Program-made: the position numbers and the translations under genes
Assembly (NCBI RefSeq): GCF_000378225.1
Contig: NZ_KB905141.1
Location: 945,326 to 1,009,325 of the forward strand
DNA length: 64,000 bases
Origin: Methylophilus methylotrophus DSM 46235 = ATCC 53528
GTDB lineage: Bacteria; Pseudomonadota; Gammaproteobacteria; Burkholderiales; Methylophilaceae
Direction of reading: 5' to 3'
In this document: positions 33,039-49,945 of the stretch, in pieces
How the letters are laid out: every line of letters begins with the position of its first letter
Numbering within the stretch: the first letter of the stretch is position 1
The notes under the pieces: generated by a model
The model's input: only the letters and a program-made list of their open reading frames with translations
Databases searched by the model: none
Told to the model about the DNA's origin: nothing

Positions 33039-33084
33039 ATACTAGGAGAGTTCGCTCATGCAATCACTACGTTAATTGACGTAG
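33039..33084 (-). promoter_or_regulatory. Activator box and -10 element of the permease-kinase operon
   Basis: The inverted repeat CTACGTTAATTGACGTAG (33067-33084) has perfect 6-bp half-sites CTACGT/ACGTAG around 6 bp. Exactly 22 nt further in the minus direction is TAGTAT (33044-33039), a plausible -10 hexamer, and the kinase ATG follows 60 nt later. There is no good -35 hexamer, as expected for an activator bound near -43. The same box and spacing recur before the porin gene and urtC. The binding protein is inferred to be the response regulator of this operon. Confidence 0.65.
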
Positions 33085-33154
33085 GGGATGTGCCACAAAA
33101 GCACAGCGCCACAATGATTAAAATTCGACACAACGCTATCCCTGTATTCCCTCA

Positions 33155-34384
33155 TCACCGCTCACTCACAACCGCTGCCAACTCTTCAGCCAACACCTCT
33201 AATGCCCTAGCCTCCAGTTTAAGTATTTTTTGCATAAGTGCTGGGTTATCTACAGGTAAAAATGAGGCACCGCCCAAATCGCTTAGCACCACTTTTTCAG
33301 CGCCCCACAAAATATTATGCGCATATAAATCGCCGTGCATGAGGCCATGAGCATGCAGGTGTTCTGCAGCCTGGGTGATGCCGTTTAAAATAAATTCGGC
33401 TTGTTGTGGTGTAAGTCTTAAGTCATCCGCATAGACATCGCGCGTGCAGCTTTCATAGCTGGGTGGCTTGGCCAGCACTTTTAAATCGGCGTCCAGCAGG
33501 GGCATGACCAAGCCGTCAACGCCTTGCGGGTGATTGTCTATCACGCCTTTAACTCCGACCAGATTAGGGTTCACGCCCGCCAGCATATTGGCATGCATTT
33601 CACACCGAGGCAGGCCATCGCTGGTGAGGCCACTCTTGAAGAGTTTTACTGCCACAGACTCTTGCATGTTTTTGTCTCGCATCAATGCCTGGTAGGTGAC
33701 ACCAGAGGCACCCTCGCCTAAGACCTGTTGCAGCGTGAGGGTTTGCCAGTCGATGTGCTGCATGGGATGTTGGCTGATTAACGCTTGCTCAATAGCGTTG
33801 CAAAACGGGTTGCCGGCATAGGCCAGCCAGGTAAGTTGGGGTAAGTCGAATAAAAAATCGGGCAAGGTCTCAAACTGGTTGGCAGAAATCCGCAATAACT
33901 CTAAGGCGTGGCAATTTGCCAGGCTGGCGGGCAAGCTGCTGAGCTGGTTACCTGCCAGCATGAGTTTTTGTAGTTTGCTGCACTCACCTAAGGCATGCGG
34001 CACTTTACTCAGCGCATTATCGGTGACGATAAACCAGCGTAAGGTTTGGGTGGGGATGGCGTTTTCAGCGATGTGTTTGATCTGGTTGGCTTTAAAGCCA
34101 ATCATGCTTAAGTTTTCGCATTGGCCCAGCACTTCTGGCAGGTGGGTAAACTGGTTGTTTGAGCAAAACAGAATGCGCAGTTTTTTCAGGCGATATAAAT
34201 CAGCAGGCAACTCAGTCAGTGCATTGCCGGATAAGTCCAGAATTTCGAGGCTATCGGCTAAGTCAAAAATCTCAGCGGGGAACTGTGTTAACTGCGCACT
34301 TAATTTGAGCTGTTTGGCCCCTTGAAGTTTGCCTGCCTTGAGTTGGGCGAGTCTATCGTCTGGCGCTGGGGTAAGTGTCATCAC
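33155..34384 (-). CDS. Leucine-rich-repeat protein kinase-like protein
   Basis: This 409-residue soluble protein has two parts. Residues about 30-190 are six to seven leucine-rich repeats of the LxxLxLSGNxLTxLP type. Residues about 215-409 resemble a eukaryotic-type protein kinase: glycine loop GEGASGVTY (about 226), invariant lysine in VAVKLFK (about 246), catalytic loop HGDLYAHN (about 348, HGD in place of HRD) and DLGG (about 368, in place of DFG). The kinase part is short and ends soon after the DLG motif, so the C-lobe is reduced. Similar LRR-kinase proteins occur sporadically in proteobacteria. It seems monocistronic, and activity is uncertain. Confidence 0.85.
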   Translation of the reverse strand: MMTLTPAPDDRLAQLKAGKLQGAKQLKLSAQLTQFPAEIFDLADSLEILDLSGNALTELPADLYRLKKLRILFCSNNQFTHLPEVLGQCENLSMIGFKANQIKHIAENAIPTQTLRWFIVTDNALSKVPHALGECSKLQKLMLAGNQLSSLPASLANCHALELLRISANQFETLPDFLFDLPQLTWLAYAGNPFCNAIEQALISQHPMQHIDWQTLTLQQVLGEGASGVTYQALMRDKNMQESVAVKLFKSGLTSDGLPRCEMHANMLAGVNPNLVGVKGVIDNHPQGVDGLVMPLLDADLKVLAKPPSYESCTRDVYADDLRLTPQQAEFILNGITQAAEHLHAHGLMHGDLYAHNILWGAEKVVLSDLGGASFLPVDNPALMQKILKLEARALEVLAEELAAVVSER

Positions 34385-34570
34385 AATGCATGTATTTTAT
34401 GGATGCGCTATGTTACTTGAATTACTCTGCAGATTTTCATCTCGGGCAGGAGATTCGGCTGATGCACAAAACTTGGCAAGCCTCTCACAACTAGAGATTC
34501 CATTATCACCACCCGAGCCTAAAATGCATACAATCTCTTGCACCCAGTTAAATTAACGAAGGGAAAGTTT

Positions 34571-34791
34571 ATACAACCCTTAAAAGCACGTGTTTTAATA
34601 ATGGGAATAGCCAAGCGGTGTGGATTCCACAAGCTTTCCAACTGGATATTCAACAAGTTGAAATAAGTCGTGCAGACAATGGTGATCTGGTAATCCATCC
34701 GATCAAACTTAACTGCGGGGATATGCTCATGGAAGCGCTAAATCAATTTGACGATGATTTTATTCGCGCAGTTGAGGATGAAATTTCATAG
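34571..34791 (+). pseudogene. VapB/AbrB-type antitoxin remnant, frameshifted and without its toxin
   Basis: In the plus direction the reading KAR-V then, after a one-base shift, FNNGNSQAVWIP is the typical N-terminus of VapB (AbrB/MazE-fold) antitoxins. It continues to a charged tail ending EDEIS at a TAG (34789-34791). The shift is at 34593-34596, where four T's stand where five would restore the frame. The expected ATG is an ATA (34571-34573). No VapC-like toxin gene follows; the next 180 bp hold nothing recognisable. I read this as a decayed, orphan antitoxin gene in an AT-rich accessory stretch. Confidence 0.8.
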
Positions 34792-34976
34792 AGCAAAAGG
34801 TCAATATATCCTCTAAAACAAAATAAAAAGCCAGCAACTAATGGAAGCTGTTCAGTAAGGGCGTTGAAAATATTAGGATGGGAGTGTTGTTACTTTCACA
34901 ATAATTTGTTTTTAAATTTTAGGATTATCGCGAAAAATTGAAAATTCTATCGAAACCAATCCTATCGCGCAGCTGG

Positions 34977-35516
34977 CTATCCTTGTTGGTTGTGATCAAG
35001 CCAACCAGTACCTTCAAGATATTCCCTGGATTGAGAATTCGTGAAGTCAATCATCTTGGCAATGATTGTCACTGGGTCGGTGCCTTTGGCTTTTTCAGTG
35101 TTGTATATTTCTAAACGTTTAGCATCAATGTCTGCGGCTTCTTTATAAAACTTTTCTTTGAAAGCATCATCAATTTTTCTACCTGTTGACGATAGTTTTA
35201 TATCGTCATAATTTTGAGACTTAAGGGAGTCCGAAATATCATAAGCAATGGCGCTAGGGATGGTTGCCATTTCATAGGCGTACTTTTCAGCAAACTGAGG
35301 ATCTTCGCTCGCAGACTTCAAAACGCCATTTTGAATTCCTGTTCTGGATTGTGTAGTACCATTGTCGGGAGTGGAGAGCGCCTTGGCTGCATCAGAAATC
35401 TTAACTGTATCGGCAGATGTTTCCGTTGAGTTTAGCAACGCTTGTTGCCGCTGAACACTTGATTTGCTGAGAAAGTTATACACTGAAGTAGCACTTCCAA
35501 TATCCTGAATAATCAT
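34977..35516 (-). CDS. Hypothetical protein, 179 aa
   Basis: Not recognised. This is a hydrophilic, helical protein with a Ser/Thr-rich N-terminal third, the phrase DTVKISDAAKAL (about 36-47), which resembles short motifs in flagellar and other exported proteins, and a C-terminal charged helix. It has no signal peptide, membrane segment or cysteine. The codon and base composition are visibly more AT-rich than in neighbouring genes, and it sits beside the antitoxin remnant, so it may be acquired DNA. An inverted repeat (CTACACcTTAA ... TTAAGTGTAG, 35519-35556) precedes its start and could be an operator. Confidence 0.65.
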   Translation of the reverse strand: MIIQDIGSATSVYNFLSKSSVQRQQALLNSTETSADTVKISDAAKALSTPDNGTTQSRTGIQNGVLKSASEDPQFAEKYAYEMATIPSAIAYDISDSLKSQNYDDIKLSSTGRKIDDAFKEKFYKEAADIDAKRLEIYNTEKAKGTDPVTIIAKMIDFTNSQSREYLEGTGWLDHNQQG

Positions 35517-35518
35517 TT

Positions 35519-35556
35519 TCTACACCTTAAGAAATAAAATGTTAATTAAGTGTAGT
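35519..35556. promoter_or_regulatory. Inverted repeat upstream of the 179-aa gene
   Basis: CTACACcTTAA and TTAAGTGTAG form an imperfect inverted repeat 3 nt upstream of the start codon on the minus strand, within the region where the ribosome would bind. It is a candidate operator or leader hairpin. The evidence is only the symmetry. Confidence 0.35.
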
Positions 35557-35677
35557 AAATTAAAAACAAGAACCATGCCAAGAAAAAAACCTTATTTCCA
35601 CCGCTTTTAATCTCTTGAGGAGCGACGTGAGACACGAAAAACGCTGAATATTTGCAGCACATTTATCGGCACTTCAC

Positions 35678-36241
35678 TCAAGCCAACATCCACACAGCAC
35701 CCAACCCCAGCATCACACCGCCCAGCAATTGCGTAGCTTTTTGCAATTGCGGATGGCTTTGGCGACCCAACACCCAGCCCAAACCATGCAGCAGAGCCGT
35801 TGCCAGCACCATGCCTGCCAAGCCAGACCATTGGTTGCCGATTTCCATGCCATGCAAATAACCATGGGCCGCAGCAGCGATGCTGACGACGCCGATTTGT
35901 AAGGCGCGGTTCACTGTTAAATTGCTCACCAGCAATAAGCCCATGACCAGCACACTGGCTGTCACCAGGGTTTCAGCCAAGGAGACCGGCACCCAAGCCT
36001 TGGCGAATGACGCTGAGACGGCCATCACAGTCACAAACAGCACAGGCAACTGCCAGCCTTGCGCAGCTGGCCGACGTGCTGCCCAGATTCCCAGCGCGAA
36101 CATCACCAGCAGATGATCCCAGCCACTGAATGGATGCATGAAGCCGGCGGCAAAGCCAGACTCCAGGCCATGGCCGGGGTGAGCAACCGCGCTGGTCGAA
36201 GCTGCGAGCGCACCTAAAAATAATAGAATACTTTTTTTCAT
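35678..36241 (-). CDS. ureJ: HupE/UreJ family protein (probable nickel permease)
   Basis: This 187-residue membrane protein has a signal-like N-terminus (1-20, ending AVA) followed by HPGHG, and six or so further hydrophobic segments. The hallmark of HupE/UreJ proteins, HPFSGWDHLLVMFALGIW (about 36-53), is present. These proteins take up nickel for urease or hydrogenase maturation. As the last gene after ureG on the same strand, it most likely supplies the urease encoded here. CGGAGAAG lies 4-6 nt before the ATG. Confidence 0.88.
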   Translation of the reverse strand: MKKSILLFLGALAASTSAVAHPGHGLESGFAAGFMHPFSGWDHLLVMFALGIWAARRPAAQGWQLPVLFVTVMAVSASFAKAWVPVSLAETLVTASVLVMGLLLVSNLTVNRALQIGVVSIAAAAHGYLHGMEIGNQWSGLAGMVLATALLHGLGWVLGRQSHPQLQKATQLLGGVMLGLGAVWMLA

Positions 36242-36328: not shown

Positions 36329-36337
36329 TCCAAATGA

Positions 36338-36442: not shown

Positions 36443-37096
36443 TTAAAGCATGAGGCCTTGTTTTTCGATGAATCTGACAATCTCCTCCAACCCCTGGCCA
36501 CTCTTCAGGTTGCTGAAAATAAAAGGCTTCTCGCCGCGCATGCGCTTGGCATCCTGGTCCATCACTTCCAGCGAGGCACCCACCATGGGCGCAAGGTCTA
36601 TCTTGTTGATCACAAGCAAATCAGACTTGGTAATACCAGGACCACCTTTACGCGGGATTTTTTCACCGGCAGCGACGTCAATCACATAAATGGTTAAATC
36701 AGACAACTCCGGACTGAAGGTTGCCGCGAGGTTATCGCCACCACTTTCCACAAACACAATATCTAGCGTCTGGAAGCGCTTGCTGAGCTGATCCACGGCT
36801 TCCAGGTTCATCGAGGCATCTTCACGGATGGCCGTATGCGGACAACCACCGGTTTCCACACCAATAATGCGCTCAGGCACCAGTGCTTCGTTACGGGTTA
36901 AAAACTCCGCATCTTCTTTGGTGTAAATATCGTTGGTCACCACGGCAATGTTGTAGACCTCGCGCAAACGCTGGCACAACGCTAACGTAAGTGCGGTTTT
37001 GCCTGAACCGACTGGGCCACCGATGCCAACACGCAATGGCTCTTTATAGTCAGTGACTTCTGGGGTGGGTGATGCAAATTGGGTATGTATTTTCAT
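36443..37096 (-). CDS. ureG: Urease accessory protein UreG
   Basis: This GTPase drives nickel insertion into urease in the UreDFG complex. The 217 residues have P-loop [12 protein letters not shown] (about 26-37), the nickel-binding CPH motif in [12 protein letters not shown] (about 82-93), [11 protein letters not shown] (about 117) and the NKIDLAP GTP-specificity motif (about 164). The start overlaps the ureF stop by 4 nt (ATGA). Confidence 0.96.
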
Positions 37097-37776
37097 GATC
37101 TGAATAACCTGCTGTATTGTGTTTCATGTTGGCATCCGGCGATACTGAGTAACGGGTTAAAGTTGCTCATGTGTTCTTCCGGAAGCGTCATGGCGCTCGC
37201 AACGACTTGCGGCAATCGCTCGCCCAAGGCAAGCAAAATGGTTTGCCCGGCCACTTGGCCGAGCGGGACCGCTTTCATGGCAGCGCTGGCCTGATTTTCC
37301 AGCCAACCCCAGACATAGCCCTGAAGTGCCTGCTCTGGTGGAATCTGCCAATGCTGTGCAATGGCCGCAAACAAGGTTGGAAAAGCCGGTGATTGCAAGG
37401 TGTTGATCTGTGCTACTAATGTTTCTGAAATCGGCTTTAAGTCGTTTAATAACCGACGCAGAGAATACCCCATTTGCCGCGTTTCAGCCCAGCCTTCAGC
37501 TGTATCGCGCCCGGCCTGGTAAAAGCTGTCCCATTCCTGAACCTGGACCAAATCACCCACCTGCCAGGCCTGATATAACTTGTATAGCACTGGCAACTCA
37601 AAGCGCGCCTGGTACACCTGCAAACTATCACCTATCCAGGCTTGTGCGGAGGTCACGTCTTTGACCTCACCAGACTCAATCGCCCATTCCAACCCTTGTG
37701 AATAGCAATAAGCCCCCACGGGCAGCAATGGGCTGGCCAGCTGCAACAAGCGGCTGAGTGCGAGTGTGGTTGTCAT
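37093..37776 (-). CDS. ureF: Urease accessory protein UreF
   Basis: This urease maturation factor binds UreD and the UreG GTPase. The all-helical 227-residue protein has the family pattern [25 protein letters not shown] near the N-terminus and SHLLQLA-type repeats. It overlaps ureE by one base upstream (TAATG) and ureG by four downstream, giving a tightly coupled ureEFG block. Confidence 0.95.
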
Positions 37777-38270
37777 TAACGACCCTGCCCTTTCAGCCGT
37801 GGCCGTAAGGTCTGCAAAGCATCGTCATCATGCCCATGCCGGTGACCGCCGCCATAAGCGCCGGCCTCGGGCTCAAACGGGGCTTGCACTTCACTGACCT
37901 GCATGCCCAAGCCAAGCAACATGTCACGCAGCACATAGTCCTGCTCCAGGCGTAACCAGCCATCACCAATCTGCAAAGGTACATGACGATTGCCCAAATG
38001 GTACGCTGCACGCATCAAGTCACGCGGGGTAGGCGCAATCACGTTATAAACAGGTTCCTGCGCGGCCACGATCTGCACCACCACACTGCCATCCTCAGAC
38101 TGTATCAAATCGCCGCCACGCAAAATAATGCCGCGGCTTAAGAATAATGCAGCCTCTTTTCCAGAAGCCAGCGTGACGCGCAAACGGCTTTTCTGGCGCT
38201 GATCAAAAGGCAGCTCCAATTGATCGTCGATATGGCCGCTGACAGTGATACGTTCGGTTAAATGGATCAT
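37776..38270 (-). CDS. ureE: Urease accessory protein UreE (nickel chaperone)
   Basis: This nickel-binding metallochaperone delivers Ni2+ to urease. The 164 residues have an N-terminal beta domain ([29 protein letters not shown]) and a C-terminal metal-binding domain. [16 protein letters not shown] (about 97-112) carries the conserved histidines, and the C-terminus has a His-rich [12 protein letters not shown] stretch, which is common in UreE. Confidence 0.95.
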
Positions 38271-38407: not shown

Positions 38408-40111
38408 TTAAAATAAGAAGTAACGTTGCGCCATCGGCAGTACTTCAGCTGGCTCGCAAACTAAAGGCATGCCATCTGCCAGCACTTCGTAGGTTTCCGG
38501 ATCTACATCGATCTTTGGCATCCAGGTATTGTGTACCATATCTGACTTCTGTACATCACGTGTGCCTTTCACGGCTACTAATGGTTTTTGCAGACCTAAT
38601 GCCTTGATTTCAGGGTTTTCCAATGCGGCTTGCGAGACAAAAGTAACTGCAGTCTTAAGTCCACCGCCATAAGCACCAAACATGGGGCGGTAATGTACCG
38701 GTTGCGGCGTCGGAATAGACGCATTTGGGTCACCCATCGCAGCTGCAGCAATCATGCCGCCTTTGATAATGGTGAATGGCTTGACGCCAAAGAATGCGGG
38801 TTTCCACACCACCAAATCCGCCAGCTTGCCAACTTCAACCGAACCTACCACATGTGAAATACCATGTGTCAGGGCCGGATTAATGGTGTATTTGGCGATA
38901 TAGCGTTTGACGCGGAAGTTATCGTTACCCGCAGCATCTTCAGCCAATGGCCCGCGCTGGATTTTCATTTTGTGCGCAGTTTGCCAGGTACGGATAATCA
39001 CTTCACCTACACGACCCATGGCTTGTGAGTCGGAAGACATCATGGAAAACGCGCCAAGGTCATGGAAAATATCTTCAGCGGCGATGGTCTCACGACGAAT
39101 GCGGCTTTCGGCAAAGGCAATATCCTCGGCAATCGCCGGATCCAGGTGATGGCACACCATCAGCATATCGAGATGCTCATCTATGGTATTGACGGTGAAT
39201 GGCCGCGTCGGGTTGGTCGATGAAGGTAATACATTCGGGTGGCTAGCCGCCTTGATAATATCTGGTGCGTGACCGCCTCCCGCGCCTTCGGTATGGAAAG
39301 TGTGAATGGTGCGGCCCTTGAATGCGCCTATCGTCGTCTCGACAAAGCCGGATTCGTTCAGCGTATCGGAGTGGATGGCGACCTGGATATCCATTTCGTC
39401 GGCGACGCTCAGGCAATTATCTATCGCCGCGGGCGTCGTGCCCCAGTCTTCGTGCAGTTTGAGGCCGATCACCCCTGCTTTGACCTGCTCACGTAGCGGC
39501 TCTGGCAAGCTGGCGTTGCCTTTACCCAAAAAGCCCAGGTTCATGGGGAATGCATCGGCAGATTGCAACATGCGATGGATATGCCATGGCCCCGGCGTAC
39601 AGGTTGTTGCGAATGTCCCCGTGGCTGGCCCCGTGCCGCCACCGACCATGGTGGTCACGCCAGACATCAGCGCCTCTTCAATTTGTTGCGGACAAATAAA
39701 ATGGATATGCGTATCAATGCCGCCCGCAGTGATGATCATGCCTTCACCGGCAATCACTTCGGTACCCGCACCAATGGCAATGGTCACACCGGGCTGGATA
39801 TCCGGGTTACCGGCTTTGCCGATGGCAGAAATATAACCGCCCTTGATGCCGATATCGGCTTTAACAATGCCCCAGTGGTCTATGATCAATGCATTGGTAA
39901 TGACGGTATCTGCGACTTCAGCTGCCAGGCCCTGCCCCTGCCCCATGCCATCACGGATGACCTTGCCGCCACCAAATTTCACTTCTTCACCGTAGATGGT
40001 GAAGTCTTTTTCGACCTCTACCCATAAATCGGTATCGGCCAGCCGTACTTTGTCACCCACCGTCGGGCCAAACATTTCCGCGTAAGCGCGTTTATCCATT
40101 TTAATCGTCAT
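38408..40111 (-). CDS. ureC: Urease subunit alpha
   Basis: This is the catalytic subunit of urease, which hydrolyses urea to ammonia and carbamate at a dinuclear nickel centre. The 567 residues match the family. Visible ligands are the HIH motif in [12 protein letters not shown] (about 132-143), the lysine that is carbamylated in GLKLHEDWG (about residue 219), the histidines in [12 protein letters not shown] (flap region, about 321), and [12 protein letters not shown] with the aspartate ligand (about 363). The start [20 protein letters not shown] is typical. It lies 10 nt after ureB. Confidence 0.97.
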
Positions 40112-40121: not shown

Positions 40122-40436
40122 CTACTTGAGGGCTCCCATCACTCGGCCGGCAAAGCCATACACTTTGCGCTCCCCTGCCAGCTTGACCAGCTGTACAGTA
40201 CGCGTCTGCCCTGGTTCAAAACGCACTGCCGTGCCGGCCGCAATATTCAATCGACAGCCATACGCTAATGCCCGGTCAAACGACAAGGCATCATTGGTTT
40301 CGTAAAAATGGTAATGCGACCCCACCTGAATCGGACGGTCGCCTTTGTTTGCGACATCCAAAGTGACCGTCTCACGACCTGTATTGAGTTCGATGTCGCC
40401 TGCTGCGACCTGCATTTCGCCGGGAATCATTGACAT
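40122..40436 (-). CDS. ureB: Urease subunit beta
   Basis: This is a small structural subunit of urease. The 104 residues start MIPGEMQ after a one-residue extension and contain the family motif [18 protein letters not shown] (about 36-53), [17 protein letters not shown] (about 60-76) and a conserved C-terminal [10 protein letters not shown]. It is separated from ureA by a 156-bp gap that holds a palindromic repeat. Confidence 0.96.
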
Positions 40437-40592: not shown

Positions 40593-40895
40593 TTATGGGA
40601 TTGGGTGATGGACGGTAACTAACTTCGTCCCATCCGGAAAAGTCGCTTCGATTTGTATATCCGGAATCATTTCCGGCACGCCTTCCATCACCTCATCGCG
40701 GTTCAGTAGCGTGGTACCGTAGCTCATGAGTTCGGCCACGGTTTTACCGTCACGTGCCCCCTCCATAATGGCTGCGGAAATAAATGCCACAGCTTCAGGG
40801 TAATTCAGTTTTAAACCACGCGCTTTGCGCCTTTCAGCTAACAATGCCGCAGTAAATATGAGTAACTTGTCTTTTTCTCTTGGGGTGAGTTCCAT
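40593..40895 (-). CDS. ureA: Urease subunit gamma
   Basis: This is a structural subunit of urease, 100 residues, which is the family's standard length. It begins [20 protein letters not shown] and contains [20 protein letters not shown] (about 22-41) and the C-terminal [20 protein letters not shown]. It follows ureD by 36 nt on the same strand. Confidence 0.96.
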
Positions 40896-40931: not shown

Positions 40932-41798
40932 TCAGGTATTCCAAATCCGCGGCCTGACAGCGTCTTTTTGATAATACCATGGCCGCAGAATCTGCCAGCA
41001 CTGTTCAAAATACTGCCTGGCTTGCTGCGAGGCATGGCCGACATAACGAATACACAATACTTCGGGCAATGCTGTGATACCCGTTTTAGCATCCGACACT
41101 GGAATATCGCGGCAGGCTTGCAAGATTTCTGCTGGCACGGTTCCGGCACATACAACAAAGGTCCCGAATACAACCGCACCACCCAAGCCTACGCGACTTA
41201 TTTTGACCAAGTCTTCTGCCTGCATGTGGGCACGTTCATTCCAGATCAGGCGACCATTGCGTGAGATGCGTTGATTTAACTTGTACACACCGCGCTCCCA
41301 GACCTCCTGCTGCGCCTGGCGACCCAGGCAGACGATATCCCATGCGGCCAGTGTGGCATCAGCGGCCAAATCAATCTCGGCACTAAAACCTACCTCAGCC
41401 GCATCGAACAAGATATTTTCCTGCGGCAACCATTCCAGGCCGCTCCCGGATGCCAGCTGAAATGACAGCTTTTGCGTGGCAATGGTGCCATTGGCTTTAT
41501 ACCACTTACCCGCGCCCGGCGTGGTCAATAAGGCTTTAGCACCCTCATCCACGGTGACCTGCAAATGCAGGTCATCTCCACCAGCGACACCTCCCGGGGG
41601 ATGTACGACGACAGCATGGCAAACATCGCCCCCTTCAGGGTGCAGGCTTTTTTGTACGACCAATGGCCCCTTGTGTAACCGGTGCGCCAGATAAGAGCGA
41701 TCATCACGTCTGGCAAAACCAAGCTCAAGTTTGGCTTGCCAGTGTTTGACCGTCATACATTGAGGTGGCGATGAAATCGCAGGCTTTAAATCATCCAT
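40932..41798 (-). CDS. ureD: Urease accessory protein UreD
   Basis: This scaffold protein carries UreF and UreG onto the urease apoprotein. It contains the UreD signatures HKGPLVVQKSLHPEG, VVHPPGGVAGGD and TTPGAGKWYKANG in the first half, with GRLIWNERAHMQAED in the middle. The open frame begins at 41843 and overlaps the urtE stop by one base (303 aa). I place the start at the next in-frame ATG (41798, 288 aa) because the longer N-terminus is not UreD-like and contains a 7-bp hairpin (41819-41836). Neither start has a strong ribosome-binding site, so this remains open. Confidence 0.9.
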   Translation of the reverse strand: MDDLKPAISSPPQCMTVKHWQAKLELGFARRDDRSYLAHRLHKGPLVVQKSLHPEGGDVCHAVVVHPPGGVAGGDDLHLQVTVDEGAKALLTTPGAGKWYKANGTIATQKLSFQLASGSGLEWLPQENILFDAAEVGFSAEIDLAADATLAAWDIVCLGRQAQQEVWERGVYKLNQRISRNGRLIWNERAHMQAEDLVKISRVGLGGAVVFGTFVVCAGTVPAEILQACRDIPVSDAKTGITALPEVLCIRYVGHASQQARQYFEQCWQILRPWYYQKDAVRPRIWNT

Positions 41799-41818
41799 AC
41801 CGGCATCATGCCACAAGC

Positions 41819-41836
41819 GCTGCCCTGATGGGCAGC
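41819..41836. promoter_or_regulatory. Hairpin at the urtE-ureD junction
   Basis: GCTGCCC and GGGCAGC pair around a 4-nt loop, 7 nt beyond the urtE stop codon in the direction of transcription. No T-run follows. It may separate transporter and urease segments of the mRNA. Confidence 0.5.
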
Positions 41837-41842
41837 AGACCA

Positions 41843-42532
41843 TTACACAGACAGATAACTTTTCACCTTGGCGGCATCCACGTTGTCGCGGGTATCCTCA
41901 TGGATAAAGCGGCCTTTATCAATGACGATAATGCGGTCTGCCACTTCCATGGTGAAACTCAACACCTGCTCGGAGACGATGATGGTGATTTCGCGCATTT
42001 TGCGGATTTCATTGAGCACTTTGGCAATATCTTTGATGATGGACGGCTGAATCCCTTCAGTCGGCTCATCCAGCAACAACACTTTTGGGTTCGTCACCAG
42101 CGCACGGGCAATCGCCAACTGCTGCTGCTGACCACCTGAAAGGTTACCGCCCTTGCGTTTGCGCATCTCATGCAACACCGGGAACAAGGCAAAAATATCA
42201 TCCGGGATTTCACGGCTCGCAGATTTTTCCAAACCGGTTTCAATGTTTTCTTGCACGGTCATGTTAGGAAAAATCCAGCGGCCTTGCGGCACATAGGCCA
42301 ACCCCTTCATCACACGATCATGCGTAGCCGACCCTTGCAGGTCTACGCCATCCACAGTGGCTTTAGTGGCCTTGCTGGGCAAAATGCCCATCAGGGATTT
42401 AAACAGAGTGGTCTTACCCATGCCGTTACGGCCCATAATGGCCAGTGTTTCGTTCTTGTTGGCTTTGAAATTCAGGCCATGAATCACCTGGCTCTGGCCA
42501 TAACTTACCTGCAAATTCTCAATTTCAAACAT
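41843..42532 (-). CDS. urtE: Urea/amide ABC transporter ATP-binding protein UrtE
   Basis: This is the second ATPase of a high-affinity branched-chain-type transporter for urea and short amides. The 229 residues have Walker A GRNGMGKTT (about 34-42), signature LSGGQQQQLA (about 135), Walker B VLLLDEPTEGIQPS (about 156), and KATVDGVDLQG. LivF is the closest general family; the urea assignment rests on the neighbouring urease and formamidase genes. It ends one base inside the open frame of ureD. Confidence 0.93.
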   Translation of the reverse strand: MFEIENLQVSYGQSQVIHGLNFKANKNETLAIMGRNGMGKTTLFKSLMGILPSKATKATVDGVDLQGSATHDRVMKGLAYVPQGRWIFPNMTVQENIETGLEKSASREIPDDIFALFPVLHEMRKRKGGNLSGGQQQQLAIARALVTNPKVLLLDEPTEGIQPSIIKDIAKVLNEIRKMREITIIVSEQVLSFTMEVADRIIVIDKGRFIHEDTRDNVDAAKVKSYLSV

Positions 42533-42561: not shown

Positions 42562-43305
42562 TTAATGGCCCAAATAGACTTCAATCACTTTTTCGTCTGC
42601 CTGCACTTTTTCCATCGGCCCTTCGGCCAGGATCTTGCCCTGATGCAGCACGGTGACTTTGTGCGCAATTTTCTTCACAAATTCCATGTCGTGTTCAATC
42701 ACAATCACCGAGCGGTTCTGGCAGATACGGTTCAGCAGATCGGCCGTCTGGTCGCGCTCTTTCGCACTCATGCCGGCAACGGGTTCGTCTAACATCAGCA
42801 GCTCAGGCTCCTGCATCAGTAACATGCCGATTTCCAGCCATTGCTTCTGGCCGTGGCTCAGCAAGGCAGATTCCATATCGAGAAACTCGGTCAACATGAT
42901 GTCTGCCGCCACTTTGCGTACACGGTCTTCCACCTCTTGCGTGCGTTTGAAGGTCAGACTGCCAAACACACCGCGACCTTTTGGATAAGACACCTCCAGG
43001 TTTTGGTACACAGTCAGGTTTTCATAAATCGAGGGGTTCTGAAATTTACGGCCCACGCCTGAACGCACAATCTCGTGCTCAGACAGCTTGGTCAATTCCG
43101 TGTTATTAAACTTGATGGACCCGGCCGTGGATTTGGTTTTGCCGCAAATCAGGTCCAGCACCGTGGTCTTGCCAGCCCCGTTGGGGCCCACCAGCACACG
43201 CAGTTCGTTTTTGTCGATATACATGGTGAGGCTATCCACCGCTTTAAAGCCATCGAAGGAGACGGTCAAATCTTCTACAGCCAAGACGAAGTCGGTATTA
43301 CTCAT
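42562..43305 (-). CDS. urtD: Urea/amide ABC transporter ATP-binding protein UrtD
   Basis: This is the first ATPase of the transporter, LivG-like, 247 residues. Walker A GPNGAGKTT (about 38-46) is followed by GKTKSTAGSIKF and VGRKFQNPSIYENLTVYQNLE. The signature region LLSHGQKQWLEIGM carries an H in the LSGGQ position (LSHGQ), as in known UrtD proteins. Walker B LLMLDEPVAGM is at about 168. The start overlaps the urtC stop by 4 nt (ATGA). Confidence 0.93.
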   Translation of the reverse strand: MSNTDFVLAVEDLTVSFDGFKAVDSLTMYIDKNELRVLVGPNGAGKTTVLDLICGKTKSTAGSIKFNNTELTKLSEHEIVRSGVGRKFQNPSIYENLTVYQNLEVSYPKGRGVFGSLTFKRTQEVEDRVRKVAADIMLTEFLDMESALLSHGQKQWLEIGMLLMQEPELLMLDEPVAGMSAKERDQTADLLNRICQNRSVIVIEHDMEFVKKIAHKVTVLHQGKILAEGPMEKVQADEKVIEVYLGH

Positions 43306-44588
43306 GCTTCTGCTCCTCTCATTTTGCTACTTTCGAGCCCAGTGTCTTTTTTACTGGCTCTCTTGCGTGGTGCTTTGGTGGCTGTATTGGTAGAGTCAGC
43401 AGCCAACATGGTTTCTGTGGTTTCGGTAAGTACAACTTGTGCTTCTACCCCGGAAGTACTTACCTCAGGCTTTTTTGCAACCTCGGCTTTGTCTTTGAAC
43501 CAGCCGTATTTGGTTGCCAGTTTGTCCCAGATACCGGCCAGACCGTTAGGGAAGAACATCACCACAGAGATAAACAACCCGCCCATCAGGAACAGCCACA
43601 ATTCTGGATAGGTTTCTGAGAACACGGTTTTGCCGTAGTTGACCAGCAAGGTGCCATAGACAGCGCCGATCAGTGAGGCTCTGCCACCCACGGCACAGAA
43701 GATCACCATTTCAATCGACGGGACGATACCGACAAAAGAAGGCGACATAAAACCAACCTGCAAGGTGAACATGGCGCCGCCCACGGCAGACATCATGGCA
43801 GCAAGGCAGAAGATAAAGATCTTGAAGTTGGATACATCGTAACCAGAGAAACGCACACGCTCTTCTTTATCGCGCATCGCCAGCAACAGCATGCCGAACT
43901 TGCTGCTCATGATGTATTTTGACAAGAAAATCGCGCCAAACAACAACAAGCCGTTCACAAAGTATAGAATATATTTGGCAGAATCACTGCGAATATCCCA
44001 ACCCAGCATGGTGCGCAAATCTGTCATACCGTTCACACCACCAGTGTAGCCTTGCTGCCCGACAATCAGGATACTCAGAATCAGCGCAATCGCCTGGGTA
44101 ATGATGGAGAAATACACCCCACCGACACGACGTTTAAACATGGCGTAGCCGATGATATAGGCAAACAGGGCTGGAATCGTCAGAACCGCAATCAGCGTAA
44201 ACGGCAAGCTCTTGAACGGCTCCCAGAACCATGGCAAGGCGGTCAGCTGGTTCCAGTCCATAAAGTCAGGGATGCCTGGCGTAGACTGGATTTTAGTACT
44301 TTCCGGATCAGAGGCTTCCAGTTTGAGGAACATGGCCATGGCGTACCCACCCAGACCGAAGAAAATGCCCTGCCCTAAACTTAGAATACCGCCGTGTCCC
44401 CACAACATGACCAGGCCGACTGCGACGAACGCATAGGTCAGGTATTTACCGATCAGGTTCAGGCGGAAAATATCTACACTTAACGGCAAGATCACGAAGA
44501 TCACCGCGGCAAGCACTGCCAGGCCGATCACTCCTTCCTTACCACCCAGTACAGGACTGGCTTTCATTTTTTCCCATAAAGTCATCAA
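43302..44588 (-). CDS. urtC: Urea/amide ABC transporter permease UrtC (FmdF-like)
   Basis: This is a LivM-type permease, 428 residues, with eight to ten membrane segments and the typical GRASLIGAVYGTLLVNYGKT region. The order of genes matches fmdF of Methylophilus methylotrophus. The last 60 residues or so form a polar, Ala/Thr/Lys-rich tail (APRKRASKKDTG) outside the permease domain, which is unusual. GAGGAGAAA lies 6-7 nt before the ATG. A separate promoter with the shared activator box lies just upstream. Confidence 0.93.
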   Translation of the reverse strand: MMTLWEKMKASPVLGGKEGVIGLAVLAAVIFVILPLSVDIFRLNLIGKYLTYAFVAVGLVMLWGHGGILSLGQGIFFGLGGYAMAMFLKLEASDPESTKIQSTPGIPDFMDWNQLTALPWFWEPFKSLPFTLIAVLTIPALFAYIIGYAMFKRRVGGVYFSIITQAIALILSILIVGQQGYTGGVNGMTDLRTMLGWDIRSDSAKYILYFVNGLLLFGAIFLSKYIMSSKFGMLLLAMRDKEERVRFSGYDVSNFKIFIFCLAAMMSAVGGAMFTLQVGFMSPSFVGIVPSIEMVIFCAVGGRASLIGAVYGTLLVNYGKTVFSETYPELWLFLMGGLFISVVMFFPNGLAGIWDKLATKYGWFKDKAEVAKKPEVSTSGVEAQVVLTETTETMLAADSTNTATKAPRKRASKKDTGLESSKMRGAEA

Positions 44589-44612: not shown

Positions 44613-44658
44613 ATTCTATTGCGACAGATATAAAGTACTAATACGTCTATTTACTTAT
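44613..44658 (-). promoter_or_regulatory. Activator box and -10 element upstream of urtC
   Basis: On the minus strand ATAAGTAAATAGACGTAT (44658-44641) matches the porin-operon box at 15 of 19 positions, counting the next T, although its left half-site is degraded. Exactly 22 nt further is TAGAAT (44618-44613), a good -10 hexamer, then 24 nt to the urtC ATG. The box-to-hexamer distance equals that at the other two promoters. This suggests an internal promoter for urtCDE-ure, with a weaker site. Confidence 0.55.
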
Positions 44659-44698: not shown

Positions 44699-45616
44699 TT
44701 ATTTACGCAGTTTGGAGGCAAACAGACCTTCCGGTTTCATCATCAGGATGGTGACGATGACGAGCAAGGTGGAGACCTTACCCATAGAGCTGGTCATAAA
44801 GAATTGCAGTATCGATTGCGCCTGGGCAATCCCGAAGGCGGAAGCAATCGTCCCGACAATGCTGGCTGCGCCACCAAATACCACGACCATAAAGCTGTCC
44901 ACGATATACAAGGTCCCTGTGGTCGGGCCAGTAGAGGCAATGGTGGTAAATGCAGCACCGGCAATCCCGGCAATGCCGCAGCCCAGGGCAAAAGTGACGC
45001 GGTCAACTTTGGCTGTATTAATCCCTACTGCGCCAGCCATGGTACGGTTCTGCACCGTGGCACGTACACGCAAGCCCCAGCGGGATTTGTACATAAACAT
45101 GTAGACACCGAAAGTCACTAGCGCCGCCAGCACCATCACGAATACCCCGTTAATCGGGATATCAATATCAGGGGTTGGCTTGAAAGAGCCCAGCATCCAC
45201 TCAGGCAGTTCGGCACTCACTTCTTTGGCGCCGAATGAAGAGCGGAAAATTTGTTGCATGACCAGACTCAAGCCCCAGGTGGCCAGTAGCGTATCCAGCG
45301 GCCGCTTATACAAGTGCCTGATCATAATGAATTCAACAAAGTAACCGACCGCGAAGGCCAGCAAGAAGGCAATCGCAATGGCAAACACGAAGTAGTAATC
45401 CGTGAAGCCGTAACTGGCTGCTACTTTTGAAATGAGTACGGTGGTGTAGGCGCCTATGGTCATAAACTCGCCATGTGCCATGTTAATCACACCCATCTGC
45501 CCGAAAATAATCGCGAGACCAAGTGCCATCAGCAGCAACACTGTAAACATGCTCAGGCCGGAAAAGCCCTGCATCACCACAATATTGCCTATATCTGCCA
45601 TCGAATAACCAAACAT
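44699..45616 (-). CDS. urtB: Urea/amide ABC transporter permease UrtB (FmdE-like)
   Basis: This is a LivH-type permease of 305 residues with eight or so membrane segments. The conserved LivH motifs are present: GLAIIFGQMGVINMAHGEFMTIGAY near the N-terminus, RPLDTLLATWGLSLVMQQ, and RVRATVQNRTMAGAVGIN. It follows the binding-protein gene after 137 nt that contain a strong hairpin. The gene corresponds in position to fmdE of Methylophilus methylotrophus. Confidence 0.93.
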   Translation of the reverse strand: MFGYSMADIGNIVVMQGFSGLSMFTVLLLMALGLAIIFGQMGVINMAHGEFMTIGAYTTVLISKVAASYGFTDYYFVFAIAIAFLLAFAVGYFVEFIMIRHLYKRPLDTLLATWGLSLVMQQIFRSSFGAKEVSAELPEWMLGSFKPTPDIDIPINGVFVMVLAALVTFGVYMFMYKSRWGLRVRATVQNRTMAGAVGINTAKVDRVTFALGCGIAGIAGAAFTTIASTGPTTGTLYIVDSFMVVVFGGAASIVGTIASAFGIAQAQSILQFFMTSSMGKVSTLLVIVTILMMKPEGLFASKLRK

Positions 45617-45753: not shown

Positions 45754-46992
45754 TTATTGATAGCCTTTTGGAAATGGATCAGGTTTGATGTAGTCAGAGG
45801 TGTAAACCACTTTAGCTTGACCATCTTTACCCCATTGACCAATACGCAGCTTGGTGGTCAGGTGGTGGTTAGCTTCTACAGTCACAGGACCTTCTGGTGC
45901 ATCCTTGAAGGTGTAACCTGGCAATGCCGCTTGTACTTTATCTACGTCGAAGCTACCTGCACGTTCAACTGCAGCTTTGTACAACCAGGGGCCCAGGTAA
46001 GCCGCTTGGGTCACGTCGCCAATCACAGCATCTTTACCCCAGCGTTTTTTGAAAGCCTCTACAAATTTCTTGTTCTCAGGATTGTCCTGGGATTGGAAAT
46101 ATTTCATGGCTGAGTAGAAACCTGCCAGGTTTTCACCACCGATACCCAATACTTCATCTTCAGTCACGGAGATGGTCAACATGGTTTGTTTGCTGGAGTT
46201 GAGGCCAGCCGCGTTCAATTGTTTGAACCATGCCACGTTACTGCCGCCTACCACCGCTGCGTAGATCACGTCAGGTTTTTTCAGTTTGATTTTGTTGATC
46301 ACGGAACCGAACTGAGTGTCGCCCAAAGCGATGTACTCTTCACCCACCACAGTGCCATGCAAGTGTTGCTCGATGTGTTTACGGGCAATCTTCATGGAAG
46401 TACGTGGCCAGATGTAGTCAGAACCAATCAGGTAGAAAGTTTTCGCTTTTTTCTCTTTAGCGATCCAGTCCAGACCTGCCAGAATTTGCTGTGTCGCTTC
46501 CTGACCTGTATAAAACACGTTTTTAGATTGTTCCAGGCCTTCATAGAAGGTTGGGTAGAACAGCAAGCCATTGTCTTTTTCAAACACTGGCAAAGCCGCT
46601 TTACGTGAAGCAGAAGTCCAGCAACCCATCACTGCAGCCACTTTGTCTTTCTCAAGCAATTTCTTCGCTTTTTCTGCGAAAGTCGGCCAGTCAGACGCAC
46701 CGTCTTCCTGGATGATTTCGATCTTGCGGCCCAAAATGCCGCCCATGGCATTGATCTGCTCAATCGCCAGTTTTTCAGCCTGGATGGAACCAGTTTCACT
46801 GATCGCCATGGTGCCAGTGGCTGAGTGCAGAATACCTACTTTTACTGTGGAATCAGTCACTGCCAAGCCAGTCGTATTCACTTTTGCTGTCGGATAATCC
46901 GCTGCAAAAGCATGACCGCTGATAAGGCCTGCGGCCATCATGGCACCGACCAGTGCGCCTTTCATAAAACCGCGTCTGTTTGAGGTACTCAT
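45754..46992 (-). CDS. urtA: Urea/short-chain amide-binding protein UrtA (FmdD-like)
   Basis: This periplasmic substrate-binding protein of an ABC transporter has 412 residues. The N-terminus has a twin-arginine-type signal (SNRRGFMKGALVGAMMAAG, cleavage after GHAFA near 30). The mature part is a Peripla_BP_5/6 domain with VKVGILHSATGTMAISE and the UrtA-like EDGASDWPTFAEKA. In Methylophilus methylotrophus the equivalent FmdD binds urea and short amides. A ribosome-binding site GGAGAAG lies 6-7 nt upstream. Confidence 0.95.
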   Translation of the reverse strand: MSTSNRRGFMKGALVGAMMAAGLISGHAFAADYPTAKVNTTGLAVTDSTVKVGILHSATGTMAISETGSIQAEKLAIEQINAMGGILGRKIEIIQEDGASDWPTFAEKAKKLLEKDKVAAVMGCWTSASRKAALPVFEKDNGLLFYPTFYEGLEQSKNVFYTGQEATQQILAGLDWIAKEKKAKTFYLIGSDYIWPRTSMKIARKHIEQHLHGTVVGEEYIALGDTQFGSVINKIKLKKPDVIYAAVVGGSNVAWFKQLNAAGLNSSKQTMLTISVTEDEVLGIGGENLAGFYSAMKYFQSQDNPENKKFVEAFKKRWGKDAVIGDVTQAAYLGPWLYKAAVERAGSFDVDKVQAALPGYTFKDAPEGPVTVEANHHLTTKLRIGQWGKDGQAKVVYTSDYIKPDPFPKGYQ

Positions 46993-47053: not shown

Positions 47054-47392
47054 TTAATGCCCGACCATCCACGGCCTGGCCGTTTTCTTGGTCTGCATTT
47101 GCAAGCCTGGTTTCCCTGTATCCTGGTTCACCGGCGGCTTGGTTTTACAAGTATGTGATCCGGTACAGCCACAGCTGGAACGTCTGGCTGTACGCGGCTC
47201 GTTCGCAGATTTCTCGTTACGTTCATGCGCGGACCGTTGCAGTTTGTCCATGATGGCCAGCTTGGGCACCGACAGGATGCGTGGGCTCACGGCACCACAG
47301 CAGTCACATTCGGCAGGCAAGCTGGACTCACTCATTTTGCGTAGCGCAGTAAACACGCCACAACTGTCACACTCATATTCATACAAAGGCAT
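47054..47392 (-). CDS. fmdB: FmdB-family zinc ribbon protein
   Basis: This 112-residue protein has an N-terminal zinc-ribbon (MPLYEYECDSCG ... LPAECDCCG, two CxxC pairs) typical of the FmdB family. A basic linker and a CGCTGSHTC stretch with further cysteines follow. FmdB of Methylophilus methylotrophus was proposed to be a regulator of formamidase expression. Its ATG lies 12 nt after the formamidase stop. Confidence 0.93.
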   Translation of the reverse strand: MPLYEYECDSCGVFTALRKMSESSLPAECDCCGAVSPRILSVPKLAIMDKLQRSAHERNEKSANEPRTARRSSCGCTGSHTCKTKPPVNQDTGKPGLQMQTKKTARPWMVGH

Positions 47393-47404
47393 CTGCGCAA
47401 CTCC

Positions 47405-48628
47405 TTATGAGGTAAATGAAACATCTACACCCGGCGGCACCATGATCTTCGGACCATCTGCATTCGGACGGATATCAAACTCAAAAATCTCGGTCGGAAT
47501 CCACAAGGTGGCGCAAGCGTTAGGGATATCGACGATACCGCTGATATGCCCTTCTACCGGTGCAGTCCCGAGAATCGAGACAGCCTGCTCGCCGCTGTAA
47601 CCAAATTTCTTCAGGTACTCGATGGCGTTCAAGCAAGCCTGGCGGTAAGCAATATGCACATCCAGGTAATGTTGCTTGCCTGCTTCGTCTACCGAAATCC
47701 CTTCAAAAATCATGTAATCACGGTAGGTCGGAGTGATTGGACTGGGTTGGAATACTGGGTTTTTAATCCCGTATTTCTTCACGCCATCCTTGATCAGGCC
47801 CACTTTGATATCCAGGTAACCGGCCATTTCAATCGCGCCACAGAATGTGATTTCACCGTCGCCTTGTGAGAAGTGCAGGTCACCCATGGAGAGACCGCCA
47901 TCTTTGACGTAGACCGGGAAGTACACACGTGAGCCTTTGGTCAGGTTTTTGATATCGCAGTTACCACCGTGATCGCGTGGTGGCACGGTACGCGCCCCCT
48001 CTGCGGCTGCTTTTTTGGCAGCATCCCCGCTCAAGCGGCCCATGACGGCAGATTGTGAAGTCGGTGGGCAAGCCAGTGGCGGTACGCGGTCAGGATCCGT
48101 CGCAATCAAGTCACCTTCACGCTTGTTCCAGGTATCGAGCAGCTCTTTGGATGGCAGACAGCCAATCAGGCCTGGGTGCATGATGCCGGCATAACGCACC
48201 TTAGGCACATGACGGGAGGTGGTGTACACGCCATGGAAATCCCAGATGGTTTTGCTAGCTTCAGGGAAATGGTCGGTCAGGAAGCCGCCCCCATTTTCCT
48301 TGGCAAACAAGCCATTGAACCCCCATTGTGAGTCATCAAATGTGCCCACATCCAGAATGTCCACGACCATCAAGTCACCCGGCTCGGCACCTTCCACGCC
48401 AATAGGGCCACTCAGGTAGTGCACCTGGGTCAGGTCTACGTCACGCACGTCATTGGCGCTATCGTTGTTACCGATCTGACCACCTGTCCAGTCCATGCAC
48501 TCGACACGGAACTCGTCCCCTGGCTTCACCATGGCAATCATGGGCAGGTCGGGGTGCCAGCGGTTATGAATCTGGCCGTCCTGCTCCCATGGTTTTTTAT
48601 CCAAATCCAACTTCACTATTGTTTTCAT
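47405..48628 (-). CDS. fmdA: Formamidase FmdA
   Basis: This enzyme hydrolyses formamide (and more slowly other short amides) to ammonia and formate. From the ATG at 48628 it has 407 residues, the length known for the Methylophilus methylotrophus formamidase. The protein begins MKTIVKLDLDKKPWEQDG, contains DWTGGQIGNNDSA, the acidic H-rich HFSQGDGEITFCGAIE region, and PPRDHGGNCDIKNL. The start is set by GGAG 9 nt upstream; an in-frame ATG at 48637 overlaps that site. It follows the porin gene by 41 nt. Confidence 0.96.
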   Translation of the reverse strand: MKTIVKLDLDKKPWEQDGQIHNRWHPDLPMIAMVKPGDEFRVECMDWTGGQIGNNDSANDVRDVDLTQVHYLSGPIGVEGAEPGDLMVVDILDVGTFDDSQWGFNGLFAKENGGGFLTDHFPEASKTIWDFHGVYTTSRHVPKVRYAGIMHPGLIGCLPSKELLDTWNKREGDLIATDPDRVPPLACPPTSQSAVMGRLSGDAAKKAAAEGARTVPPRDHGGNCDIKNLTKGSRVYFPVYVKDGGLSMGDLHFSQGDGEITFCGAIEMAGYLDIKVGLIKDGVKKYGIKNPVFQPSPITPTYRDYMIFEGISVDEAGKQHYLDVHIAYRQACLNAIEYLKKFGYSGEQAVSILGTAPVEGHISGIVDIPNACATLWIPTEIFEFDIRPNADGPKIMVPPGVDVSFTS

Positions 48629-48669
48629 TACGCTCATCTCCTTTGTGGGAAAGGGTTATAAGGTGTTGA

Positions 48670-49842
48670 TTAAAATTGCATCTGCAAGGCAAGTCTGAAA
48701 AAGTTATCACTTGAGGCAGCAGGCGTATCTGTTTTGCCGTAAGTGGCGGTGATCACAGAGTTGTATGGGGCGATCACGTAGTTGGCACCTATTTCGAAAC
48801 GCTTGGTATCAGCACTGGTACGAGTGTTGACGCTGGCAGCTGTGGTCAGGCCGTCGGCGTCAAACTTCTGGTAGCGGACGATAGGCATGATCTTGCCCCA
48901 GCCCACGGGATCATTGAACAGATAACCTAAACCAGCGGAGTAAGCTTTACCTTGTTCTCCGAGGAAGACATCATCAGTGTCGTAGTAGTAGTACGCCGCT
49001 TCAGCAGAGAACGTACCTGGACCCACGTCTTTTTTCTCCAAAAGGAAATCCACACTGTATGATTTGTAGTCACCTACAACGCCAGGAATAGTACTTACCA
49101 CACCATCTTTCTTCATGCGCCCGGCAATACCGATGGCCAGAATATCTTTGGCGCCGAAATAATTACCAGTACCGTAGTAGCCTGGCTCTGCATCCCAGAA
49201 ATCAATTTGTACGCGACCGGCATACATCAATTTGTCTTTAGTACCGTTAGCTTCAGATTGCGCACCTACGCCGCTGAAGCGGAAAATATTGTCGCCTTCG
49301 AACGCGCCAAAAGAAACCGCCACGTGGTCCTCCATAAAACTGGTCACTACTGCCACACCATCGTCACGACCAATCACGCCGCCGTTCCAGCCGTAGCGGG
49401 AAGCGATGTTTGCCCAATAACCACCACCCATGGAGTAGTAAGGGCCTGCCATATTGGCGCGGTCACTTGGAGAGAGGAAACGACCTGCCCAGATTGCCAC
49501 TTCAGGGGTCAGCTGAAACTGCACATTGGCATCGATCACTTCAAAGTTACTGTTGGCAGAACCGCCGCCAGATTTTTCCGTGTTCAACATCCCCTTGATG
49601 TATTTGTTAAATGAGCCTGACAAATACAAACGTGCACTGTCGAGTGTAAAATCGTTTGAGCGGTCACTGCCATTGGCAGCAGCATCTTCAACAGAGTTAT
49701 AACTCGTGATAAAACCGAAGCCGGCACTGATATACTTATCTTCGCCAAAGCTGATCGTGGCCCCCGCATTTGCCAATTGGGCACCCAAGCCACAAGCCAT
49801 TGCTACTGCAGTATGCAAGGCACATTTTTTCAAGTTCATCAT
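48670..49842 (-). CDS. fmdC: Outer-membrane porin (FmdC-like)
   Basis: This is an outer-membrane beta-barrel protein of 390 residues with a signal peptide (1-26, ending QLANA), alternating hydrophobic/aromatic strands and a terminal phenylalanine (RLALQMQF), the signal for outer-membrane insertion. Its place upstream of formamidase matches fmdC, proposed in Methylophilus methylotrophus as a porin for amides and urea. The first of two adjacent ATGs has GGGAG 6 nt upstream. It is the first gene of the amide operon. Confidence 0.9.
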   Translation of the reverse strand: MMNLKKCALHTAVAMACGLGAQLANAGATISFGEDKYISAGFGFITSYNSVEDAAANGSDRSNDFTLDSARLYLSGSFNKYIKGMLNTEKSGGGSANSNFEVIDANVQFQLTPEVAIWAGRFLSPSDRANMAGPYYSMGGGYWANIASRYGWNGGVIGRDDGVAVVTSFMEDHVAVSFGAFEGDNIFRFSGVGAQSEANGTKDKLMYAGRVQIDFWDAEPGYYGTGNYFGAKDILAIGIAGRMKKDGVVSTIPGVVGDYKSYSVDFLLEKKDVGPGTFSAEAAYYYYDTDDVFLGEQGKAYSAGLGYLFNDPVGWGKIMPIVRYQKFDADGLTTAASVNTRTSADTKRFEIGANYVIAPYNSVITATYGKTDTPAASSDNFFRLALQMQF

Positions 49843-49899
49843 CTAAAACTCCCTTTCTCGTTAAATTCAAACAATCACAGTTGATCAAAACTTGCGCTC

Positions 49900-49945
49900 A
49901 GCTTAACGAGAGGGGTGTGTAGGACAAATACGTCAATTTGCGTAG
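49900..49945 (-). promoter_or_regulatory. Activator box and -10 element of the porin-formamidase operon
   Basis: The minus-strand sequence CTACGCAAATTGACGTAT (49945-49928) is the same 6+6+6 inverted repeat seen before the permease-kinase gene, with one base changed in each half-site. TAAGCT (49905-49900) follows after 22 nt as a weak -10 hexamer, and the porin ATG 57 nt later. The spacing is identical to that at the other two sites. There is no sigma-54 promoter here. Confidence 0.68.

Follow-up and report, generated by a model that had tools for sequence, protein, structure and literature searches.

Among the described systems closest to the one considered here is CrbS/CrbR (MxtR/ErdR; Pseudomonas and Vibrio; ACTU motif), in which a transporter-fused hybrid kinase and a LuxR-type regulator control the use of a small nutrient through an inverted repeat, imperfect and placed just ahead of the promoter; in Pseudomonas fluorescens this CrbR motif spans -52 to -36 and is needed for activation (PMC5715377). 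A comparable arrangement is found in a 64,000-nt stretch of the genome of Methylophilus methylotrophus DSM 46235 = ATCC 53528 (NZ_KB905141.1; whole genome 2.86 Mb), hereafter the window, which encodes a permease-like hybrid sensor kinase and a LuxR/NarL-type response regulator (28603-29538) and in which three promoters carry an 18-bp box ahead of a -10 hexamer. The gene run upstream of the kinase shares a porin, a formamidase, FmdB and a binding-protein-dependent transporter with fmdCABDEF of the same species, a cluster that is described as induced by formamide and urea and repressed by ammonia (PMC10781810). The account of the fmd cluster in that review names only a putative positive regulator, and the term "two-component" is absent from its main text (PMC10781810). 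Reading the sequence, we consider it very likely that the boxes are operators of the LuxR/NarL-type regulator, which would activate a urea and amide regulon in response to a signal sensed through the permease-like kinase.

A box and a hexamer at a fixed distance

All three boxes lie on the minus strand and each is followed, after exactly 22 nt, by a -10 hexamer. Box 1, CTACGTCAATTAACGTAG (33067..33084, read 33084-33067), belongs to the kinase promoter and precedes TAGTAT (33039..33044). Box 2, CTACGCAAATTGACGTAT (49928..49945, read 49945-49928), belongs to the fmdC promoter and precedes TAAGCT (49900..49905), and the internal box 3, ATAAGTAAATAGACGTAT (44641..44658, read 44658-44641), is situated in the urtB-urtC gap and precedes TAGAAT (44613..44618). 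Re-reading of the minus strand reproduced the coordinates and gaps given for these elements in an earlier note on this DNA. The description of the box as an inverted repeat holds strongly for box 1, in which 16 of 18 positions are self-complementary, but the repeat is imperfect at boxes 2 and 3 (12 of 18 each), and the left half of box 3 is degenerate. The earlier note had also seen no clear -35 element, and a sigma-70 scan of 32900-50100 agrees, reporting a -35/-10 pair at none of the three promoters; its seven matches, against 17.6 expected from shuffles, all lie elsewhere. The hexamer positions said to be conserved, T1, A2 and T6, are kept in 86%, 92% and 93% of 132 non-redundant sites. With a -10 element present and a recognizable -35 element absent, these have the composition of activator-dependent sigma-70 promoters.

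If transcription is assumed to start 7 nt past the hexamer, the box spans approximately -52 to -35. The regulator would bind this dyad, roughly TACGYNANNTNRCGTA, whose centre at about -43.5 puts it next to, or partly over, the -35 region. The bound protein would recruit RNA polymerase, since these promoters offer a -10 element (T1, A2, T6) and no good -35; the position comes from the sequence, and we infer activation. A protein at about -43 that overlaps the -35 region could also block polymerase and so repress, and the two conserved T residues with which the spacer opens at fmdC might be part of a weak -35 element. We judge repression to be very improbable, as it sits poorly with the missing -35/-10 pair at the three promoters and with the rigid 22-nt phasing. 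The operon is moreover reported to be substrate-induced (PMC10781810), and CrbR activates from what would be the same position (PMC5715377).

Within the home genome, the core TACGNNNATTGACGTA occurs at zero mismatches in two places, both among the window boxes, and it is not specific by itself because it is common at one to two mismatches (52 reads at up to two mismatches versus 117 for the reversed pattern). The composite of box, 22 nt and TANNNT is scarce. At up to three mismatches it gives 8 reads at 6 places genome-wide, versus 2 for the reversed pattern, and at up to two mismatches four places are left. Three of these lie upstream of the kinase gene, fmdC and urtC, and the fourth, on a different contig, is upstream of a gene for an aliphatic amidase. 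The earlier note had named a box frequent in the genome as a refuting condition, and the composite is rare. That all four of these places precede urea/amide or kinase genes supports the proposed role of the regulator. The amidase site (C2:155385-155429) reads ATACGCCAATTAACGTAT, 22 nt, TAAATT, and the gene behind it matches the NCBIfam aliphatic amidase model (amiE) well above its cut-off. The fifth place, on contig C7 and with three mismatches, reads CTTCGTCAATTTACGTAT, 22 nt, GATAAT, and stands before a gene for a TonB-dependent receptor that is followed by nikR (PF08753). The pairing of NikR with urease suggests that this locus serves nickel supply: the receptor is probably also a target and may supply nickel to urease. 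The predicted regulon is larger than the earlier note claimed, with amiE included and the receptor/nikR locus probably likewise. The sixth place (C3:320620, three mismatches), before pilin-like open reading frames (ORFs), was judged to be probably chance, as was a match with one core mismatch at C1:858001, where TANNNT at 22 nt is absent on both strands. In the home genome the targets would comprise the run of porin, formamidase, urea transporter and urease genes, the internal urtC promoter, the kinase-regulator genes, the aliphatic amidase gene and probably the TonB receptor gene.

Conservation of the module in the genus, the family and beyond

In a sample of 22 Methylophilus genomes the kinase gene is present in 20, fmdC in 21, amiE in 7 and the TonB receptor gene in 17, and the module, with TANNNT at 22 nt, stands upstream at 20/20 kinase loci, 21/21 fmdC loci and 7/7 amiE loci. 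Conservation upstream of fmdC and urtC orthologues had been proposed as a check; at the orthologues of fmdC and the kinase gene the module keeps its 22-nt spacing while the neighbouring DNA diverges. The TonB receptor gene has a weaker box; its 15 close orthologues comprise 13 with xATNNT at 22 nt, one with it at 23 nt and one with none there. Three receptor paralogues (L127-L129; 43-45% identity) have no module upstream and were rejected as members. These were left out of the counts of boxes and spacing, along with a fragment without the fmdC 5' end (L102) and with Methylophilaceae or near-same records already counted (L245-L247, L250, L251, L258, L262).

Among 132 non-redundant boxes chosen on box score alone, TANNNT falls exactly at offset 22 in 109; the next most frequent offset is 27, with 23, and every other offset has at most 6. 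Shuffled upstream regions reach that box score in 16 of 235 cases, where the shuffles, as in the footprint analysis, preserve base composition and not dinucleotides. At 42 fmdC promoters the box and the hexamer average 1.74 and 1.73 bits per base, against 0.71 for the spacer and 0.34 and 0.39 for the two flanks. The contrast is somewhat inflated, since the pattern used to select these windows itself prescribes part of the box and of the hexamer.

The wider family was represented by 150 Methylophilaceae genomes, in which the regulator occurs in 50 and urtA in 48. In genera other than Methylophilus, 28 of 30 regulator-centred stretches carry urease, urt or fmd genes, and a box precedes fmdC at 23/23 loci, 22 of which have the hexamer at 22 nt by automatic pick; the remaining locus (L167) has its box, 22 nt and hexamer at G090:C1:1504233. 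The strict pattern TACGYNAWWTNRCGTA-N23-TANNNT yields 109 sites in 48 of the 150 genomes versus 7 for the reversed pattern, a count in which palindromic sites can appear twice. It is present in 47/50 regulator-bearing genomes and in 1/100 others (Fisher 4e-34), a co-occurrence that strengthens the earlier nomination of the LuxR/NarL-type regulator as the candidate for the box. The lone regulator-less genome with the pattern, G133 (completeness 88%), contains both fmdC and urtA. Most of the strict sites (92 of 109) lie within 30 kb of the regulator gene, and twelve of the other 17 are upstream regions of kinase, fmdC or amiE genes on other contigs or at distant contig places.

Several further sites were seen in these genomes. 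Four of the 17 distant sites, in four genomes of two genera (L236, L237, L238, L242), consist of a box, 22 nt and TAATAT before a gene for a MOSC-domain protein (identified by Pfam from L236), possibly an extra member of the regulon, and one in a single genome (L239, G010:C15:117677) has a box, 22 nt and TAGTAT before a proteasome-family gene, possibly by chance. A hexamer of the form TANNNT also stands 22 nt from the fmdC box on the other strand in G010, G017, G022, G030, G035, G043, G047, G048, G050, G053, G057, G066, G071, G130 and G133, which hints at a divergent promoter. Where fmdC and fmdA are about 0.7-0.8 kb apart, in six genomes, a second box-22-hexamer is found between them (G027:C10:750163, G029:C1:1041068, G090:C1:1506115, G096:C18:20062, G102:C11:90754, G107:C35:102673).

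Outside the family, a scan of Genome Taxonomy Database (GTDB) genomes with the kinase N-terminus confirmed at least 594 relatives, 80 of which were kept. The regulator gene lies directly downstream of the kinase gene in 75 of these 80 non-family loci, and a urease, urt or fmd gene is found in the stretch around the kinase in 65. A box is present upstream of urtA in 19/26 non-family regions, 17 of them followed by TANNNT after 22 nt (as in CTACGCAATCTGACGTAT-22-TAATCT and ATACGCCACCCGGCGTAC-22-TAGCAT), and through these urtA sites the predicted regulon reaches past the family. A sample of 399 genomes of the order, with the kinase called at E <= 1e-80, contains it in 65. Here a second strict pattern gives 32 sites in 24 genomes versus 6 for the reversed pattern, and the kinase is encoded in 21 of these 24 (Fisher 1.8e-15). 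With the home family removed, the pattern occurs in 14/58 kinase-bearing versus 3/328 kinase-less genomes (Fisher 3.3e-10). All 14 sites in the non-family kinase-bearing genomes precede urtA-like, fmdC, amiE or kinase genes, whereas none of the five sites in the three kinase-less genomes does so. A G+C-rich version of the box is found in 10 of 37 divergent ureA-kinase gaps, against 1.05 expected from shuffles, and its hexamers towards ureA, placed by eye, lie at approximately 21 to 23 nt and not always at 22. Two kinase-less genomes (G297 and G333; L330, L331, L345, L346) have sites of the form TACGCAATTTTGCGTA-22-TATAGT, which precede unrelated genes and perhaps serve another LuxR-type regulator with the same geometry.

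Orthologous upstream regions share descent, and the likeness among them could in principle reflect common ancestry, or chance, with no function behind it. We give this practically no credence, as the module recurs with identical spacing at genes that differ from one another (kinase, fmdC, amiE, TonB receptor, urtA), the spacer and flanks diverged while the box and hexamer did not, and reversed-pattern controls are low at each scale (2 vs 8, 7 vs 109, 6 vs 32).

A number of observations weigh against the boxes being operators of this regulator throughout. The internal urtC site, listed at first on a par with the other two, has a real box and a real TAGAAT, but it is degenerate, weak and lineage-restricted, being present in 13 and absent from 6 of 19 Methylophilus relatives. 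Self-control of the kinase-regulator genes, which the earlier note had proposed, fits the Methylophilus loci described above but is not universal. In other genera of the family a box precedes 15 of 28 kinase genes, 14 with the hexamer at 22 nt, and 13 have no box of their own, including all six g11 and five g7 loci, where the kinase gene may be transcribed from the urease operon. Autoregulation is not general, since beyond the family a box is scored upstream of the kinase gene in only 7 of 72 regions, and a single one of these has TANNNT at 22 nt. In addition, 15 of the 80 non-family kinase loci have no urea gene within the examined stretch, and 44 of the 65 kinase-bearing genomes of the order sample are without the strict pattern (21 have it). 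Finally, the regulator and urtA co-occur almost perfectly in the 150 family genomes, so that co-occurrence cannot separate a box that is bound by the regulator from one that belongs to the urea genes.

This last point leaves room for a different binding protein, such as a general nitrogen regulator or FmdB, which has been called a putative positive regulator in print, acting at functional boxes and promoters while the two-component system is a mere neighbour; with co-occurrence almost one to one the linkage is confounded, and the fmd cluster is said in the review to hold a putative positive regulator (PMC10781810). We nevertheless hold such a factor to be unlikely. Besides fmdC, the kinase gene has the box, and so do amiE and the TonB receptor gene, which are not linked to it. 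The family matched by FmdB is one of small zinc-ribbon proteins. In the order sample, the genomes that lack the kinase have no strict-pattern site before a urea gene (0/5), and the dyad suits a LuxR-type dimer, with the CrbR motif at what would be the same place. Binding by the LuxR/NarL-type regulator therefore remains our preferred reading.

A permease-like kinase and its response regulator

The kinase gene (29535..32978, minus strand; start uncertain, TTG listed) encodes a permease-like, possibly NCS1-like N-terminus and a Cys-rich linker, followed by the domains of a hybrid sensor histidine kinase, namely PF00512 (HisKA), PF02518 (HATPase_c) and a C-terminal PF00072 (receiver domain, REC). 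The response regulator (28603..29538, minus strand) consists of PF00072 (REC), a middle domain and PF00196 (GerE helix-turn-helix, HTH). Among 107 regulator homologues, with some genomes counted twice, the phospho-accepting D57 is invariant, as is K109, and D13 and D14 are kept in 102; mean identity is 75% in the HTH, 67% in the REC and 39% in the middle. The middle domain received no identity from Pfam, and a fold search of the model matched mainly receiver domains and full-length regulators such as StyR, FixJ and LiaR. Because the catalytic domains are intact and the phospho-Asp is invariant, we infer that the kinase phosphorylates the regulator, and the permease-like N-terminus would sense urea, formamide or related small amides.

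The earlier designation of this N-terminal half as a permease stands in so far as it is transporter-like, but the fold comes closest to NCS1 only in a modest model and has no sequence-family match. Residues 1-659 match no Pfam family at E<=5, the N-termini of 18 orthologues have no common Pfam match (two stray DUF matches, in one member each), and a profile search of the Protein Data Bank (PDB) gave no sequence match. The AlphaFold model of the N-terminus is modest (pLDDT 64.6, pTM 0.67); its five best Foldseek matches are the NCS1 transporters CodB and Mhp1 (best E 1.1e-6, target TM-score 0.60-0.68), and the SLC5 members NIS, CHT1, SMCT1 and DUR3 and other LeuT-fold proteins rank below them. 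An SLC5 (SSF) domain is accordingly not assigned to the N-terminus, in which Pfam finds none and SLC5 folds rank lower, and NCS1 membership by sequence model is not assigned either, with neither a Pfam nor a PDB profile match. The linker region has no Pfam match to STAC, although Pfam may hold no STAC model. Between the permease-like part and the kinase lies a cluster of Cys residues (residues 512-549; window 31332-31445, minus strand) that is invariant in the 18 orthologues and possibly forms a metal site.

We offer, as a tentative proposal that we regard as possible though rather doubtful, that the kinase represents a new class of transceptor in which an NCS1-like permease has been turned into a urea/amide sensor and joined to a hybrid kinase by an invariant, Cys-rich and possibly metal-binding linker. 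Such a protein would read the substrate, and perhaps metal sufficiency, and would turn on nickel uptake at the same time as transport, amidases and urease; the class would be present in many Betaproteobacteria and in some Gammaproteobacteria.

The gene run and comparison with known systems

Upstream of the kinase gene and on the same strand, the genes are ordered fmdC-fmdA-fmdB-urtABCDE-ureDABCEFG-HupE/UreJ, and from their order and spacing the run from fmdC to HupE/UreJ is predicted to be one operon. It begins with fmdC (48670..49842), an outer-membrane porin that matches NCBIfam porin_ExtI below its cut-off and is named from gene order, fmdA (47405..48637; formamidase, NCBIfam FormamaseFmdA) and fmdB (47054..47392; zinc-ribbon protein, TIGR02605). 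The transporter genes are urtA (45754..46992; urea/amide-binding protein, TIGR03407), urtB (44699..45616; TIGR03409), urtC (43302..44588; TIGR03408), urtD (42562..43305; TIGR03411) and urtE (41843..42532; TIGR03410). The urease genes ureA (gamma subunit, 40593..40895), ureB (beta, 40122..40436), ureC (alpha, 38408..40111), ureE (37776..38270) and ureG (36443..37096) have NCBIfam matches, while ureD (40932..41843) and ureF (37093..37776) have none at 1e-20 and are named from position only. The run closes with a HupE/UreJ family protein (35678..36241; PF04955), presumably a nickel permease. Directly upstream of the kinase promoter, an ORF at 33155-34384 (minus strand) encodes leucine-rich repeats joined to a protein-kinase-like domain.

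Our findings confirm the element, show that it is conserved and extend it beyond its first description. The system is best read as one of a known kind, in which a kinase fused to a transporter acts with a LuxR-type activator, and does not form a new category. Among the literature matches listed, which for the most part exclude subscription papers, no account of this two-component system or of its box was found, and an earlier description is possible. The available part of a 2026 CbrA preprint contains neither "NCS1" nor "urea", and the main text of a metformin paper that mentions a nucleobase cation symporter contains neither "histidine kinase" nor "two-component". The analysis supplies a specific candidate regulator, operator and promoter geometry for an operon whose induction by urea and formamide is in print (PMC10781810), and predicts the same switch in many other urea-importing bacteria. 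It also brings to light a family of sensor kinases whose permease-like sensor half is matched by no Pfam model, and suggests a link, via the same operator, between the uptake of nickel and the use of urea.

Compared with the systems already described, the present one is set apart by its sensor, its operator and its targets. The transporters CodB and Mhp1 resemble the modelled fold of the kinase N-terminus and differ from it in that they have no kinase fusion and it has no match to their sequence family. The RpuS/RpuR pyruvate system of Sinorhizobium fredii shares a transporter-fused kinase, of SLC5/STAC type, and a promoter repeat that is needed, but differs in that this repeat is an imperfect direct one and the target is a pyruvate symporter (PMC9100948). 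CrbS combines an SLC5 domain with a STAC linker and acetate-gene targets, where the kinase described here has a putative NCS1-like fold, a Cys-rich linker and predicted urea/amide targets, and the half-site TACGY..RCGTA is unlike the ACTU sequences in Table 4 of the same account when compared by eye (PMC5715377).

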